NCBI GenBank assembly: GCA_014381585.1 | Contig: JACNLH010000079.1 | Location: forward strand, 1-41,133 | Length of the DNA: 41,133 nt | Direction of reading: 5' to 3' | From: Candidatus Sulfurimonas ponti | Lineage (GTDB): Bacteria; Campylobacterota; Campylobacteria; Campylobacterales; Sulfurimonadaceae | In this document: one piece after another, positions 5,838 through 39,566 of the stretch | Layout: each line of letters starts with the position of its first letter | How positions within the stretch are numbered: position 1 is the first letter of the stretch | Translations under genes and position numbers: made by a program | The notes under the pieces: model-generated | Told to the model about the DNA's origin: nothing | The model's input: the letters and a program-made list of their open reading frames with translations, nothing else | Databases searched by the model: none

Positions 5838-6791
5838 TTATGGAGATGTACTTATTAGCTCCAGTTTTTCTTTTCTTGAGAGTTGTTTTATTGCGTACTC
5901 TCTTTGCATCGCGTGAACTTTACCATCCGCATTTTCAAAATATACCAACTTCACCGGTCTTCGCACTTTTGTGTATTTTGCACCTACATTAGAAGTGTTG
6001 TGTTCTTGCACTCTTCTTTGTAAGTTTGTTGTCACTCCTGTGTAAAGTGTATCATCGGAACATTGAAGCATGTAGACCTTCCAAGAACTTACAGGCGTTA
6101 CAAAGGTGTCGTTGCCCTCCACTTGATAAAATCTAGCCTCATTAAAGCGGCAATGGTACATACTGTATCCACATACCAATGAATCAAGCGTATCTTCATA
6201 GTCTTTTAATTTCTGCCCTTTACACTCTCTTATATCAACTTTTAAAAGAGGGTGCGCAGAAACAACTTTAGATAAATACTTTTTATATATATCCAGCTGT
6301 TCTCTGATAAACTCAGTATTACGCCCTTTTTTTCTTTTATAGGGAAGAATTTTATGATTGTTAAAAAGCATCGCAATAGTTGCGTTGGGGTACACTTCAA
6401 AAAGCACTTTGTCGTTTTTAAAATCTCTTTTAAATCCAGATGCTACAAGTTTTTTATACAACTCTTCACTTCTAATATTCGGGGAATGTTTTTTCAGGAT
6501 TTTTCTATTTGCAGGAAGCATAGAGATTTTATATTTTGCAAAATCTTTGTTGAAGTTTTTTTCTATTTCACGGTTGCCACTTTCATTTGGAACAACTAAA
6601 GGTGCATCCACACCAACATAAACCTTATGCTCTTCATATTTTTGTATCTCTTTAACTATTTCATCTATCGATTTCAGAAGTTGAATATCAAGAATTTTCA
6701 AACTTTTAGATTTTGGATGAGAGATTAAGACACAAAAGCCTGAGAGATTTTTCTCTCCCCAAGCCAAGTCTATGCCTATGTAAATATCCAA
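5838..6791 (-). CDS. DUF429 - GIY-YIG nuclease fusion protein
   Basis: This 317-residue protein joins two domains. Residues 1 to about 225 match DUF429, an RNase H-like fold: GIDLAWG at 6-12, GVDAPLVVP near 60, FEVYP near 131 and DTLDSLVCGY near 200 supply the expected acidic residues. Residues from about 235 to the end are a compact GIY-YIG (UvrC/URI type) nuclease domain with WKVYMLQC, LYTGVTTNLQRRVQEHN and a late QREYAIKQLSRKEK helix. The start is TTG with an AAGG site about ten bases before it; no ATG would preserve the first strand. Both parts are nuclease-like, but substrate and role are unknown. It sits 11 bases behind the pseudouridine synthase gene. Confidence 0.85.
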   Translation of the reverse strand: MDIYIGIDLAWGEKNLSGFCVLISHPKSKSLKILDIQLLKSIDEIVKEIQKYEEHKVYVGVDAPLVVPNESGNREIEKNFNKDFAKYKISMLPANRKILKKHSPNIRSEELYKKLVASGFKRDFKNDKVLFEVYPNATIAMLFNNHKILPYKRKKGRNTEFIREQLDIYKKYLSKVVSAHPLLKVDIRECKGQKLKDYEDTLDSLVCGYSMYHCRFNEARFYQVEGNDTFVTPVSSWKVYMLQCSDDTLYTGVTTNLQRRVQEHNTSNVGAKYTKVRRPVKLVYFENADGKVHAMQREYAIKQLSRKEKLELISTSP

Positions 6792-10785: not shown

Positions 10786-11655
10786 TTAAATCTCCTTTGT
10801 CAAAATATTTTTGTTCATTAGTTTCACAAACTGAAGAGGATCAACTTGCACACCGCCAACTCTTACTGAAAAATGTAAATGGGGGCCAGTCACACGTCCG
10901 CTTGCACCTGATAGTCCAAGTTCTTCACCCTTATAAATTTTCTGTCCCAGTGTAACCGAAAATGCACTCATATGATAATAACAGGTATAAATTCCCTGCC
11001 CATGATCGACAATAACAGTACCACCCGAATAAAATCTGTCTTTTGCTAAAACTACAACGCCATCATTACTTGAAATAATCGGAGTGCCCACTTTAGCTCG
11101 AAAGTCTGTCCCGCTATGATACCCTTTTAGTGTATCATTATACACTCTTGCTTTTCCAAAATCACTTGTTATAAAACTATCCATTGGCAATATAAACTCT
11201 GAAGAAAGATAGTTTTTCTTTGTAGATGTGGCATAAATGTTCATCGCTTCATGGTACTCTTTGTTAATTCTTTCATTAACCTCTTCACCTTTGGGATTCA
11301 CCTTTGACTTTGTCACCTGAATACTCTCTTTTTTATAGTTCCCATCTTTAATCTCAATAACAATATTTTTAGTTTTCGTTTTAGAGTTTTGCACATAGAT
11401 GATTTTTAAAGTTTCATTTTTAGGCTTTTCATAATAACTAACAGGTAAAAGCGCATACATCTTTGAATTATCTAATGGATTATCATATACATTAAAACTT
11501 TTTTTTCCAAGTTTTAGTTTTTTATACTCTAAACCCTTTTCTTTTTTAAATTCAAATAATGAAGTTCTTCCATTTTCAATGCTCGTATCTGAGACTTCAA
11601 AGTTTAAAGAAAAAAGTAAAGAGCTGAGTAAAATTAAAAAAGCTAAGAATCTCAT
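10786..11655 (-). CDS. M23-family murein metallopeptidase, exported
   Basis: From the ATG at 11655 the protein has 289 residues, with a signal peptide (about 1-17, hydrophobic, then LNFEVSD), a beta-rich N-terminal region, and a LytM-type catalytic domain from about 155. Zinc ligands and catalytic residues are present: YHSGTD (H180, D184), the H of YYHMS (about 228) and GPHLHFS (H259, H261). All are intact, so it should be an active peptidoglycan endopeptidase, a family linked in Campylobacterota to cell curvature. A TTG one codon earlier is possible, but the ATG overlaps the smpB stop as TGATG and is preferred. Confidence 0.92.
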   Translation of the reverse strand: MRFLAFLILLSSLLFSLNFEVSDTSIENGRTSLFEFKKEKGLEYKKLKLGKKSFNVYDNPLDNSKMYALLPVSYYEKPKNETLKIIYVQNSKTKTKNIVIEIKDGNYKKESIQVTKSKVNPKGEEVNERINKEYHEAMNIYATSTKKNYLSSEFILPMDSFITSDFGKARVYNDTLKGYHSGTDFRAKVGTPIISSNDGVVVLAKDRFYSGGTVIVDHGQGIYTCYYHMSAFSVTLGQKIYKGEELGLSGASGRVTGPHLHFSVRVGGVQVDPLQFVKLMNKNILTKEI

Positions 11656-12107
11656 CAATAATCCTTCATAGAGCGTTCAACATCACGCTTTTGGTCTTTT
11701 TCTTTTAAATCATTTCGTTTATCGTGCAATTGTTTCCCTTTTGCGATGGCAATCTGCAATTTCACCAGATTTCTATCGTTGAAGTAGAGTTGTAAGGCCA
11801 CTATTGTATACCCGTCACGCGTGACGGCTTTGAGCATCTTCTCCAACTGTTTCTTATGTAAAAGAAGTTTTCTGCTTCCTCTTTCTTCATGTCCGTAAAA
11901 TCGATGTGTCGTCTCCAGTCTTCCGATATGAGCATTAAAAAGATATGCTTCACCCTTTACAAAACGGATAAAACTGTCTTTGAGATTAACCCGGTGCGCA
12001 CGAATCCCCTTAACCTCACTCCCAGTCAAAACCATCCCGGCTTCAAACTTCTCTTCTATAAAATAATCATGATAGGCTTTTTTATTTTTAGCTACTGTTT
12101 CACCCAT
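11655..12107 (-). CDS. smpB: SsrA (tmRNA)-binding protein SmpB
   Basis: SmpB carries tmRNA to stalled ribosomes for trans-translation. The 150-residue protein shows the oligonucleotide-binding core ([31 protein letters not shown]) and the basic C-terminal tail ([19 protein letters not shown]) that enters the mRNA channel. Length is normal. The ATG is 11 bases behind the RelE-like toxin gene, so transcription from the toxin-antitoxin promoter should read into it. The tmRNA gene itself is not in the window. Confidence 0.97.
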
Positions 12108-12118
12108 TGTTTTCCAAC

Positions 12119-12388
12119 TTAATATATATTTTTTCTTGAGCCAACTCTTAAAATAAGTAGTATAATCTCATCTTCTTCTATTCTAAAGAGTACTCGTATT
12201 TTCTTCGCTACAACAAACCTATACACAGAGTCAAATTCACTTCCCTTTAACTCAGTTACTTTTTTGCTACTTTGAAGTAATTCAAAATTTTCTGCTAGAT
12301 AATGAATCTTTTTTACAATCAAGATTCTATCTGGATGCGAAAAAGATTTTAAATCCTTAACAGATTTATCTGAATACTTTATATTCAA
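12119..12388 (-). CDS. RelE/ParE-superfamily toxin
   Basis: The 89-residue protein has the small RelE/ParE fold pattern: [15 protein letters not shown] at the start, a central helical hairpin, then [15 protein letters not shown] and the ending RVGSRKNIY. The paired basic residues, two arginines and the terminal tyrosine match catalytic positions of mRNA-cleaving RelE rather than the gyrase-inhibiting ParE branch, but this is judged by eye. The ATG overlaps the antitoxin stop codon (ATGA), the usual coupling in such pairs. It lies 11 bases upstream of smpB. RelE-type enzymes cut mRNA in the ribosomal A site. Confidence 0.88.
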
Positions 12389-12618
12389 ATCTCTATGCCC
12401 AACTCTGCATAGACATTCTCACTAGAGTAAACTTCCATGCTACCATTTTTTATCTCTTTAATTACGCTATCCGCTACAACACTATCCGTATAGTCAAAAT
12501 AAAAATCTAAGGCAGTTTCAACAACCTCTTTTTGACTTTTATGCAAAGCCAAAGAAACAGTCTCTAACTCTTTTGCAATCGATTCGTCTAATGATAATAA
12601 TTTTTTTACTGTTGCCAT
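12385..12618 (-). CDS. Ribbon-helix-helix-like antitoxin
   Basis: I place the start at the ATG at 12618 (MATVKKLLSLDES), which has AAAAGG nine bases upstream; a TTG three codons earlier is less likely. This gives 77 residues. The N-terminal half (LLSLDESIAKELETVSLALHK then a helix to about 46) fits a ribbon-helix-helix DNA-binding domain, and the C-terminal acidic part would wrap the toxin. Antitoxins of this kind repress their own promoter; matching half-sites are seen just upstream (12639-12670). Confidence 0.85.
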   Translation of the reverse strand: MATVKKLLSLDESIAKELETVSLALHKSQKEVVETALDFYFDYTDSVVADSVIKEIKNGSMEVYSSENVYAELGIEI

Positions 12619-12638
12619 ACTAAACAACCTTTTAATTT

Positions 12639-12670
12639 AGATATACAATTATATATCTTTATAGATATAT
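12639..12670. promoter_or_regulatory. Operator of three alternating half-sites at the toxin-antitoxin promoter
   Basis: Three copies of the half-site AGATATA or its complement occur in a row: AGATATA (12639-12645), TATATCT (12652-12658) and AGATATA (12663-12669). They form two overlapping palindromes, with 6-base and 4-base centres, that cover the -10 box and the spacer. This is the kind of array that a ribbon-helix-helix antitoxin dimer would occupy cooperatively. Confidence 0.65.
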
Positions 12671-12676
12671 TGTCAA
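12648..12676 (-). promoter_or_regulatory. Consensus sigma-70 promoter of the toxin-antitoxin-smpB transcript
   Basis: On the minus strand TTGACA (12671-12676) and TATAAT (12648-12653) are both perfect consensus boxes with an ideal 17-base spacer. It is the best promoter match in the window. The -35 box starts at the base next to the stop codon of the methylase remnant. Confidence 0.85.
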
Positions 12677-12817
12677 TCATTTTTTTCCTAAATACTCCTC
12701 ATACAACTCAAACAAAAATTCTATGCGTTCTTTGTCGTTTTTGAAGTTTTTGTTTGTGTAGCATTTATCTACTGCCTTGTCTAAGTCTTGGTGGGCTTTT
12801 CTTAAGCGTGGCGGCAT
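12677..12817 (-). pseudogene. C-terminal remnant of an MmeI-type DNA methyltransferase/restriction enzyme
   Basis: An open stretch of 46 codons (ATG at 12817, TGA at 12677-12679) encodes MPPRLRKAHQDLDKAVDKCY, then a variable part, then KERIEFLFELYEEYLG. I recognise this as the conserved extreme C-terminus of MmeI-like type IIL/IIG methylase-endonucleases (usual pattern: PPxLRKAHQxLDxAVDxxY ... ERVxxLFxLYxxY). The rest of the enzyme, normally about 900 residues, is absent and a stop codon sits directly upstream. It is therefore a decayed or deleted gene end stranded between ispE and the toxin-antitoxin promoter. Confidence 0.75.
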
Positions 12818-12860
12818 TTATTTTAAATCATTCGGTAATAAGTTCTCTAGCTACGTGCCA

Positions 12861-13649
12861 TTAGCTTTCTATCACCCTAAAAAAGCTACTCCCGCTTCCG
12901 CTGAAGTGCCAGCCTTGTTTGTAATAATTTTTCAACTCTTTATATTCTTGCAACGCAGGAGCGAACAAGTCATTTGCTTCTTTAACATCCATAGTTTCTA
13001 AAATCTTTTTAGAACTTGTCTGCTTGAGTCTTTCTCTCTCAAATCCGTCTATAGGTGCATAAAAATCTTCTCTGTATGTCTGATAGACTTTGGGTGTGCT
13101 GATCTTGACATCGGGAGTGAACACTTCTATATCAAGTGTCTCTTCTTTAAATTCTTCCACCACTTCACCGATACCGCTTACATTTGCACTTGCGTATCCA
13201 TAGATGAAAAATGGCACATCTGCTCCGACCTGCAAACCTACAAGTGCCAATTCATTTGTGCTAAGCCCAAGGTGAAGCACTTCATTACACATTTTTAAAT
13301 AGGTTGCCGCGTCACTGCTGCCACCGCCTAAACCTGCAAAGGCAGGGATGGATTTTTTCACTGAAACACCATATGTGTGCATGAGTTGCTCTAAGGCTTC
13401 AGACTGTGTGGCCTTTTTGAGGGCGAAATACGCTTTATAAATTGTATTTTGTTCCACTTCACAAGTAAAGTCTCCATTTATACAAAAATTTTGAGACTTA
13501 CCGCCAAGTTCATCTTTAGGAATAAAAGAGAGTTCATCATACAAAGAATCAACTCTCATAAATCTGCTTATAATTTCATGATAATTATCTCGAAGTCCCG
13601 TGATTTTTAAAAAAATATTCACCTTTGCGTATGCTTTATAAACTTTCAT
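12861..13649 (-). CDS. ispE: 4-diphosphocytidyl-2-C-methyl-D-erythritol kinase
   Basis: IspE phosphorylates CDP-methylerythritol in the non-mevalonate isoprenoid pathway. The 262-residue protein of the GHMP kinase family shows AYAKVN with catalytic K9, the ATP-binding loop GLGGGSSDAA at 106-115, catalytic D144 within VGADVPFF, and SGSGSSFFR near the end. It follows csrA by four bases. Campylobacterota usually have smpB right behind ispE; here about 750 bases of insertion separate them. Confidence 0.96.
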   Translation of the reverse strand: MKVYKAYAKVNIFLKITGLRDNYHEIISRFMRVDSLYDELSFIPKDELGGKSQNFCINGDFTCEVEQNTIYKAYFALKKATQSEALEQLMHTYGVSVKKSIPAFAGLGGGSSDAATYLKMCNEVLHLGLSTNELALVGLQVGADVPFFIYGYASANVSGIGEVVEEFKEETLDIEVFTPDVKISTPKVYQTYREDFYAPIDGFERERLKQTSSKKILETMDVKEANDLFAPALQEYKELKNYYKQGWHFSGSGSSFFRVIES

Positions 13650-37179: not shown

Positions 37180-37803
37180 TTAGTCTATATCTTCCCATTT
37201 TTGCGTAAATTCATTTATCTCATTTCCAGGGATTTTCAACCTAGCTGCTTTTGCTATAGTTTTTAAAATCCCGGCAGCTTCTTCTAAATCATCATTTATA
37301 ATGAGGTAATCATACTCCGAGATTCGCTGTATTTCTCTTTTAGCCATCTCTAATCGGCCGTTTATCACCTCTTGAGTGTCTGTTTTACGCCCTTGGAGTC
37401 TTTCCTTTAATGCCGAAAGTGTCGGTGGTGAAATAAAAACAGATGTTGTGATATCCCCCAGTCTGTTTGTCACAACCGTGTTTCCTTGCACGTCTATATC
37501 AAAAATAACAAGCTTTGCATCTTTTAAAGCTTGCTTCACCGGTCTGATAGAAGTGCCATAATAATTACCATGCACATTAGCATATTCCAAAAACATATCA
37601 TCTTCTATATCTTTTTTAAACTCTTCTTTTGTTACAAAATGGTAATCAACACCATCCACTTCACCAGTGCGGATTGAACGGGTTGTTGTTGATATCGAAA
37701 AGTGACACTCACCTATATCATCTATAATTTCTTTTAAAATGGTGCTTTTACCGGCTCCGCTAGGACCGGAAAGCACTAGGATGGCCCCGGTGTTATGATT
37801 CAC
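37180..37803 (-). CDS. gmk: Guanylate kinase
   Basis: Gmk phosphorylates GMP to GDP. The 207-residue protein shows the P-loop GPSGAGKST at 13-21, the GMP-binding FSISTTTRSIRTGEVDGVDYHF segment in two parts near 35-56, and EYANVHGNYYGTS near 72. The start is GTG, overlapping the stop codon of the acidic protein gene by one base and preceded by GGAGA nine bases upstream. Length is normal. Confidence 0.96.
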   Translation of the reverse strand: MNHNTGAILVLSGPSGAGKSTILKEIIDDIGECHFSISTTTRSIRTGEVDGVDYHFVTKEEFKKDIEDDMFLEYANVHGNYYGTSIRPVKQALKDAKLVIFDIDVQGNTVVTNRLGDITTSVFISPPTLSALKERLQGRKTDTQEVINGRLEMAKREIQRISEYDYLIINDDLEEAAGILKTIAKAARLKIPGNEINEFTQKWEDID

Positions 37804-39566
37804 TATTCACTGTCTCCCAGTTCTATATTGATACTGATCTTCATGCCCTTCATTGAAGCGGCTATATCCTCGTTAGATAAGGCTGCAAGAAGTTTTTTTA
37901 AAGACTCAACACCTTTGTTGCTTGATTGGAGCTCTAGGTTTTCTAACCCTGTATCACTGTTTAAGCTGAGATCTTCGATCTCATTAACTTCTGAACTTTC
38001 GCTAGATTCATTCAAACTGTCTAAATTTACTTCTGGAACTTCACCAGATTCACTTGGAGATTCTGCACTTACTTCTCCAATGGCAAGTTGTAAATCTCTT
38101 GCATTTAAGGAATCTAAATCATCTATATCACTTGCAACCATATCCAGCAGTGTCTCTTCATCAAGCTCACTATCCAAATCTTCTTGACTTAGTTTTCCCA
38201 CTGCATTTTCTATTTCAGCTTCCAGGCTTAGTTCTTCACCTAAATCCAATTCATCTAAGTCAAGATCCAAGTCATTGTCCAAGTTGAAGTCTTCAAGTTC
38301 ATCAAGTTCATCAACTTTGTCAGTTTCAAGGGATTCGTTTGGAGTCTCTTCTAATGACAGCTCTTCCTCTGAAAAATCTAGTTCTTCTTCTAGGTCTGTG
38401 TCATTATCTAAGCTGAACTCTTCGAGTTCATCGACTTCTGGAACTTCACTGGATTCACTTGAACTATCTGAATTTACTTCTTCTAGGTCTGTGTCATTAT
38501 CTAAGCTGAACTCTTCGAGTTCATCGACTTCTGGAACTTCACTGGATTCACTTGAACTATCTGAATTTACTTCTTCTAGGTCTGTGTCATTATCTAAGCT
38601 GAACTCTTCGAGTTCATCGACTTCTGGAACTTCACTGGATTCACTTGAACTATCTGAATTTACTTCTTCTAGGTCTGTGTCATTATCTAAGCTGAACTCT
38701 TCGAGTTCATCGACTTCTGGAACTTCACTGGATTCACTTGAAGTTTCTTCAGTCATTTCGCCGAAATCCAGTTCTTCGATTTCATCAAGGTCTGCGACTT
38801 CCATAGCATCATCTAGGCCATCTTCGCTCACCTCATTCACTTCATCAAGTAAGTCTTGCACTTCTTGCAACTCATCTTTATCTAATACACCTTCTGATTC
38901 TTCTTGCAAAAATTCATCAAGGTCTGAGACTTCCATAGATTCATCCGAATCATCTTCGCCCACGTCCAACAAGAGTTCGTCATCAAGGGAAACATCTTCT
39001 ATATCAGACAACTCTTCTAATTCACCAAGATCTTCCATATCCAAGTCATCACCTAAATCAATGTCATCAAGATTTAAATCATCTAATTCATCATCTAGAT
39101 TCAATTCATCATTCGCATCTAAGTCTTCTAAATCTAAATCATTGTCTAAACTGAACTCTTCAAGTTCATCAGCTTCTAAAGTTTCATTTGGCTCATCTGG
39201 AATCTTCTCAATCACTTCTTCTGCATCTGAGGATAAGTCAATTTCATTTGCTTCTCTTCCCAGGCTGGAAAACAGTTCTACAAGATCCGTTGGTAAAAAC
39301 GGTTTCTTTATCACTCTTGTAAAATTATTGTCTTCTTCAGCATTACGAGAACAAATATAAAGGGATTTTGAAAAAGTTATTCTATCTTGAAGTTCACTTA
39401 AAAGTTCAGGTGTGTAAACAGTGTCATCAATTACAACAAGGTCATAAGAACTTTCGCTAACAGCGTCTATACCCCCAACAACCTCTAACTCATCTGAAGT
39501 TTTTTGTGCACTTAATGTAACTAATTTATTAACGACCGGGTTGTCATTTAAAAGTAATATTTTCAA
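37803..39566 (-). CDS. Receiver-like domain fused to a long acidic repeat region
   Basis: The 587-residue protein starts at TTG 39566 with AAGGA eight bases upstream. Residues 1 to about 100 look like a response-regulator receiver: LLLNDNPVV, the phosphoacceptor region YDLVVIDDTVY (near 45-53), SLYICSRN and the VIKKPFLPTDLVE lysine region (near 86-98). From about 105 to 540 it is dominated by Asp, Glu, Ser and Leu, including four near-identical 31-residue repeats. A final 45 residues (GVESLKKLLAALSNEDIAASMKG) form a helix-rich end. It occupies the place of the highly acidic protein Cj1178c (poly-E-rich protein in Helicobacter), beside fliR. Function unknown. Confidence 0.88.
   Translation of the reverse strand: MKILLLNDNPVVNKLVTLSAQKTSDELEVVGGIDAVSESSYDLVVIDDTVYTPELLSELQDRITFSKSLYICSRNAEEDNNFTRVIKKPFLPTDLVELFSSLGREANEIDLSSDAEEVIEKIPDEPNETLEADELEEFSLDNDLDLEDLDANDELNLDDELDDLNLDDIDLGDDLDMEDLGELEELSDIEDVSLDDELLLDVGEDDSDESMEVSDLDEFLQEESEGVLDKDELQEVQDLLDEVNEVSEDGLDDAMEVADLDEIEELDFGEMTEETSSESSEVPEVDELEEFSLDNDTDLEEVNSDSSSESSEVPEVDELEEFSLDNDTDLEEVNSDSSSESSEVPEVDELEEFSLDNDTDLEEVNSDSSSESSEVPEVDELEEFSLDNDTDLEEELDFSEEELSLEETPNESLETDKVDELDELEDFNLDNDLDLDLDELDLGEELSLEAEIENAVGKLSQEDLDSELDEETLLDMVASDIDDLDSLNARDLQLAIGEVSAESPSESGEVPEVNLDSLNESSESSEVNEIEDLSLNSDTGLENLELQSSNKGVESLKKLLAALSNEDIAASMKGMKISINIELGDSE
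38384..38742. repeat. 93-bp perfect tandem repeat, about 3.9 copies
   Basis: The unit recurs at exactly 93-base spacing (for example TAGGTCTGTG at 38391, 38484, 38577 and 38670), and I see no mismatch between copies over 359 bases. 93 is a multiple of three, so the frame of the acidic protein is kept and each unit adds 31 residues (SSESSEVPEVDELEEF followed by SLDNDTDLEEVNSDS). Such perfect copies point to recent expansion and probable length variation. Confidence 0.95.

Follow-up and report, generated by a model that had tools for sequence, protein, structure and literature searches.

On its minus strand, the window (the whole 41,133-nucleotide stretch of Candidatus Sulfurimonas ponti contig JACNLH010000079.1 that was analysed) carries a conserved operon in the order uvrD–truB–csrA–ispE–[insert]–smpB–M23 peptidase–TPR. 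The insert between ispE and smpB has a lower G+C content (30.5 %) than its two flanking genes (38–39 %) and holds a RelBE-type toxin–antitoxin (TA) pair as well as the 3' remnant of an MmeI-family restriction–modification gene, whose stop codon touches the −35 box of the TA promoter (Table 1). The original prediction that a TA pair had been inserted upstream of smpB was upheld; the pair is not the whole insert, and the MmeI remnant had been missed. The sequence also bears out that the toxin gene reads in the same direction as smpB and stops 11 nt before its ATG with no terminator-like site in between. No such site was found anywhere on the minus strand from ispE to smpB, the TA pair included, and no tRNA or tmRNA was found in the window.

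Table 1. Features of the insert and its flanks in the window, and cargo found at the ispE–smpB junction of other genomes.
Feature	Location	Strand	Remarks
smpB (SsrA-binding protein)	11655–12107	−	PF01668, E 3e-55; ATG at 12107
Insert	12108–12860	−	753 bp; ispE stop to smpB start
Toxin–smpB spacer	12108–12118	−	11 nt; terminator-like site absent
RelE/ParE-superfamily toxin	12119–12388	−	89 aa; TTG start; PF05016, TIGR02385, predicted fold
RelB-like antitoxin	12385–12618	−	77 aa; ATG start; NF048017, E 4e-6, below that model's cut-off; stop overlaps toxin start
Further half-site of palindrome	12640–12645		
Sigma70-type promoter, TTGACA-N17-TATAAT	12648–12676	−	exact consensus
Palindrome TATATC-N6-GATATA, likely operator	12652–12669	−	inside promoter spacer and −10
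MmeI-family type IIG restriction–modification 3' remnant	12677–12817	−	46 codons + stop; PF20467, E 5e-17
ispE, intact	12861–13649	−	upstream flank of insertion site; NF003216, E 6e-105
PemK/MazF	L011, ispE–smpB junction		
HipBA	L110, ispE–smpB junction		
PIN + RHH-like partner	L117, ispE–smpB junction		likewise 11 nt from smpB
HTH protein + AbiEii + MmeI N-terminal remnant	L157, ispE–smpB junction		
MmeI + pentapeptide + Bro-N	L156, ispE–smpB junction		MmeI intact
MmeI + DUF3800	L160, ispE–smpB junction		
PDC-M11 + ASCH	L161, ispE–smpB junction		
DUF5131	L121, ispE–smpB junction		
Type IIG restriction end	L144, ispE–smpB junction		
Bro-N proteins	L081, L153, L158, ispE–smpB junction		
Pentapeptide + Bro-N	L007, ispE–smpB junction		

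The pair shares with RelBE/RelE-StbE type II TA systems (PF05016, TIGR02385) a small antitoxin gene followed by the toxin gene with overlapping stop and start codons (here TTGA), a palindromic operator over a sigma70 promoter and a RelE-like predicted fold of the toxin, and differs from them in being embedded in a housekeeping operon with its end 11 nt ahead of smpB, as well as in an antitoxin that matches known families weakly. The antitoxin–toxin gene pair is conserved among homologues, and because these begin at the ATG at 12618, the antitoxin start previously placed at 12627 has been moved there. The toxin scores 28.0 bits against PF05016 (ParE_toxin; cut-off 23, E 3.3e-6) and 27.1 bits against TIGR02385 (RelE/StbE), which is 0.8 under the cut-off of 27.9. 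That the only family passing its cut-off bears the name ParE_toxin, and that the RelE/StbE model falls short, would favour a ParE-type toxin acting on gyrase rather than a RelE-type mRNase, in which case ribosome rescue would be irrelevant to the toxin. Such an assignment is nevertheless improbable, given that TIGR02385 is matched by 15 of 17 toxin homologues (E 1e-3) and that YoeB, RelE1, RelE2 and archaeal RelE all rank above ParE among the structure matches of the AlphaFold model (pLDDT 81, C-terminus poor), the closest being YoeB, mycobacterial RelE and archaeal RelE. Moreover, residues R65, R81, R85 and Y89, invariant or nearly so, resemble the basic/aromatic C-terminal set of RelE, and the Pfam name is clan-wide. 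By comparison with RelE, the four residues would fit an mRNA interferase. A phage source of the toxin was rejected, as no relative was found in viral contigs.

The TA promoter, which had been singled out as the best consensus promoter in the window, is its only perfect match to TTGACA-17-TATAAT (0.09 expected), and the combination of promoter and palindrome is the sole site of that kind in the genome when up to three mismatches are allowed. The −35 box, the palindrome and the −10 box are kept in approximately 20 homologous TA loci while the flanking sequence differs, hence the promoter/operator belongs to the module rather than to smpB. From what is known of type II TA biology, the antitoxin would be expected to repress its own promoter via the palindrome. 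Being co-directional with smpB, devoid of a terminator-like site and equipped with a conserved promoter/operator, the pair seems able to transcribe smpB, and smpB is likely to be co-transcribed from the TA promoter in addition to read-through from upstream. Such read-through may still feed smpB, because the ancestral arrangement is a tight operon in which the two genes, ispE and smpB, touch, and as the ispE–TA interval has no terminator-like site, transcription from the TA promoter would only add to it. No report of transcription reading from TA pairs into the genes behind them emerged from the literature searched.

The ispE–smpB junction is a recurrent insertion hotspot with repeated gain and loss. 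The smpB loci were compared in about 120 congeners, many of whose genomes are drafts and in several of which the insert reaches a contig end. In most of them ispE and smpB touch or overlap. Among the 102 genus genomes whose retrieved smpB region included both genes, the gap between ispE and smpB is at most 30 bp in 77, 31–100 bp in 8 and more than 100 bp in 17, some gaps being short and non-coding; in nine further genomes ispE lies 1.6–12.4 kb upstream of smpB. No interruption was seen at the neighbouring junctions csrA–ispE (0/97), truB–csrA (0/95), uvrD–truB (0/65) and smpB–M23 (0/109), and the ispE–smpB junction differs from csrA–ispE, truB–csrA and smpB–M23 with a Fisher p of 3e-6 or lower. 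On the tree of IspE and SmpB, the occupied state requires 27 changes for the 35 rows labelled occupied, 19 of which are forced by well-supported (starred) branches, and among the nearest relatives of the window empty sites (L013, L018) stand beside sites occupied by PemK (L011), HipBA (L110) and the cargo of L007. In an even sample of the order, 49 of 60 genomes keep ispE upstream of smpB and five have inserts of 0.6–2.6 kb, one of which, judged by its sequence, looks like an adenine methylase gene adjoining another gene. Insertions 3' of smpB were sought and rejected: where the M23 gene is missing, the following conserved gene comes within 170 nt, the one exception being L136, in which another ORF intervenes downstream of smpB.

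The cargo at this junction, assigned to families with Pfam and PADLOC, ranges from TA and restriction genes to ordinary ones. The latter comprise genes for a cytochrome-like protein in five genomes and for a membrane protein in three, TonB/sensor genes and a chemotaxis-like cluster, and since at least roughly one-third of the coding inserts carry ordinary genes, the site does not serve purely for defence. All insert genes of a recognised family read co-directionally with smpB. Genes for MmeI type IIG enzymes are intact at the same junction in two genomes (G020 and G004), with C-termini near-identical to the window remnant, and are reduced to remnants in G005 and in the window, which keeps the C-terminal 46 codons only. 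A frameshifted relic of a Phd/YefM antitoxin was also observed in G045 (L152:14454-14630), 11 nt before smpB and with a spacer similar to that of the window; no toxin gene was seen beside the relic, and the site is regarded as rearranged because ispE is absent within 14.6 kb.

Hotspots of defence genes flanked by core genes are already known, as exemplified by cDHS1 and cDHS2 of Pseudomonas aeruginosa (PMC10250203), and the literature searched contained no description of one at ispE–smpB. The ispE–smpB site shares with them (PMC10250203) a fixed pair of core genes on either side, defence cargo that varies and is repeatedly gained and lost, and the lack of a single responsible mobile element; at ispE–smpB, nothing that would explain cargo entry (integrase, attachment site or direct repeat) was found. 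Unlike cDHS, the ispE–smpB inserts are mostly 0.1–5 kb long (one of 12 kb), lie inside a tight co-directional operon and show the uniform orientation of recognised cargo described above. cDHS2 is flanked by the ssrA tmRNA gene (PMC10250203), whereas here ssrA is far from smpB. Integration linked to tmRNA was rejected, since ssrA and smpB are at least 117 kb apart in four relatives with complete or near-complete genomes; in G005 ssrA is on a different contig from smpB. The genome from which the window derives, a 94 %-complete draft, gave no tmRNA match above the cut-off, which is taken as an assembly gap because five relatives have tmRNA. CoCoNuT type IV restriction systems likewise link defence genes to SmpB/tmRNA biology, but their defence proteins themselves contain a fused SmpB-like domain (PMC11090510), whereas in the window the genomic smpB stands beside independent cargo; a relation to them was set aside, as no such domains occur at the locus.

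The original prediction had left it to a comparison of related genomes whether the RelBE pair is fixed or sporadic at smpB, and it proved to be sporadic. Of 228 family genomes, 17 have the toxin family, and among those with smpB located only the window copy adjoins it. A fixed RelBE–smpB association was therefore rejected, since the only copies of the toxin family beside smpB are those of the window and of contig L050 (JADGEA010000187.1), with the remaining homologues elsewhere. Several homologous pairs are embedded in operons, closely followed by a co-directional gene, and carry the same promoter, which suggests that the RelBE module lives inside operons in general. It occurs beside or between genes for tetrapyrrole (cobalamin-type) methylases (L037, L041, L042/L054, L045) and between an AddB-like nuclease gene and the gene of a UvrD-like helicase (L040/L052).

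L050 is arranged as csrA–ispE–[four genes, one SIR2]–RelBE–smpB, shares 86–95 % identity with the window over CsrA, IspE and the beginning of SmpB, and has a near-identical toxin–smpB junction, including the 11-nt spacer. The contig is filed under a Flavobacteriaceae metagenome-assembled genome yet is clearly Sulfurimonas-like, and was probably mis-binned. The dN/dS values of the toxin and antitoxin genes are 0.055 and 0.07, similar to that of csrA (0.049); both TA genes are under purifying selection. Together with the layout of L050, these values indicate that the RelBE pair was kept while the upstream cargo changed.

Taken together, the pair is probably a mobile RelBE-type type II TA module that occupies a recurrent hotspot at ispE–smpB in a conserved Sulfurimonas operon as a passenger, and not as part of a dedicated toxin–rescue circuit. 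The antitoxin would bind the palindrome and repress the TA promoter, and transcription from this promoter and from the upstream operon would run through the pair into smpB. Cargo would be retained only if it reads with smpB and leaves smpB expressed. A fall in antitoxin would open the promoter and raise smpB mRNA as a by-product, the main role of RelBE presumably being that of a selfish or defence-type passenger, and RelBE may be the last survivor of earlier cargo that included an MmeI restriction–modification gene.

A dedicated damage-and-rescue operon, in which RelE would cut mRNA on ribosomes while its own derepressed transcript provided the SmpB that rescues them, had been proposed for this arrangement and is highly doubtful. 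It draws on the close co-directional spacing without a terminator-like site, the conserved promoter of autoregulatory type, the preservation of the junction in L050 and the selection on both genes, on reports that RelE generates non-stop ribosome complexes (PMC8012679) and that smpB and ssrA are essential in Helicobacter pylori, a member of the same order (PMC2584231), and on the presence at the site of several TA types known for hitting translation. A RelE–SmpB link thus makes biological sense. The confinement of this toxin family at smpB to two loci, however, and the restriction–modification, pentapeptide, cytochrome-like and chemotaxis genes that share the junction do not single out such a link, and the rescue partner of smpB, ssrA, maps far from it in complete relatives. 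It is just as implausible that TA modules in general favour the junction as a docking site coupled to rescue, used independently by RelBE, YefM(-YoeB), PemK, HipBA, PIN-RHH and AbiE modules, where SmpB co-expressed with an activated translation-attacking toxin would improve survival.

A further reading dispenses with toxin logic and centres on the promoter. The insert may have separated smpB from the ispE operon, so that the TA promoter, strong, low-noise and autoregulated, would now be the main smpB promoter by exaptation, retained since smpB needs it. This proposal agrees with the exact consensus of the TA promoter and with the persistence of RelBE and its promoter beside smpB while the upstream cargo of the window and L050 turned over. 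Its chances are judged low, as upstream read-through is possible across the terminator-free ispE–TA interval and relatives with empty sites manage without such a promoter.

The locus points to a small defence/TA hotspot within an operon conserved across the genus, directly before a ribosome-rescue gene. Inspecting the ispE–smpB site is a simple way to find new defence genes in Sulfurimonas, and its natural variants (RelBE, HipBA, PemK, PIN, AbiE and empty) lend themselves to asking whether cargo promoters alter smpB expression and tolerance to translation stress.

Two further ORFs of the window were recorded apart from this locus. The ORF at 37803–39566 is acidic and response-regulator-like, with near-exact internal repeats (EVPEVDELEEFSLDNDTDLEEVNSDSSSESS), and that at 5838–6791 apparently combines a DUF429-like N-terminal portion with a C-terminal portion that is GIY-YIG-like.
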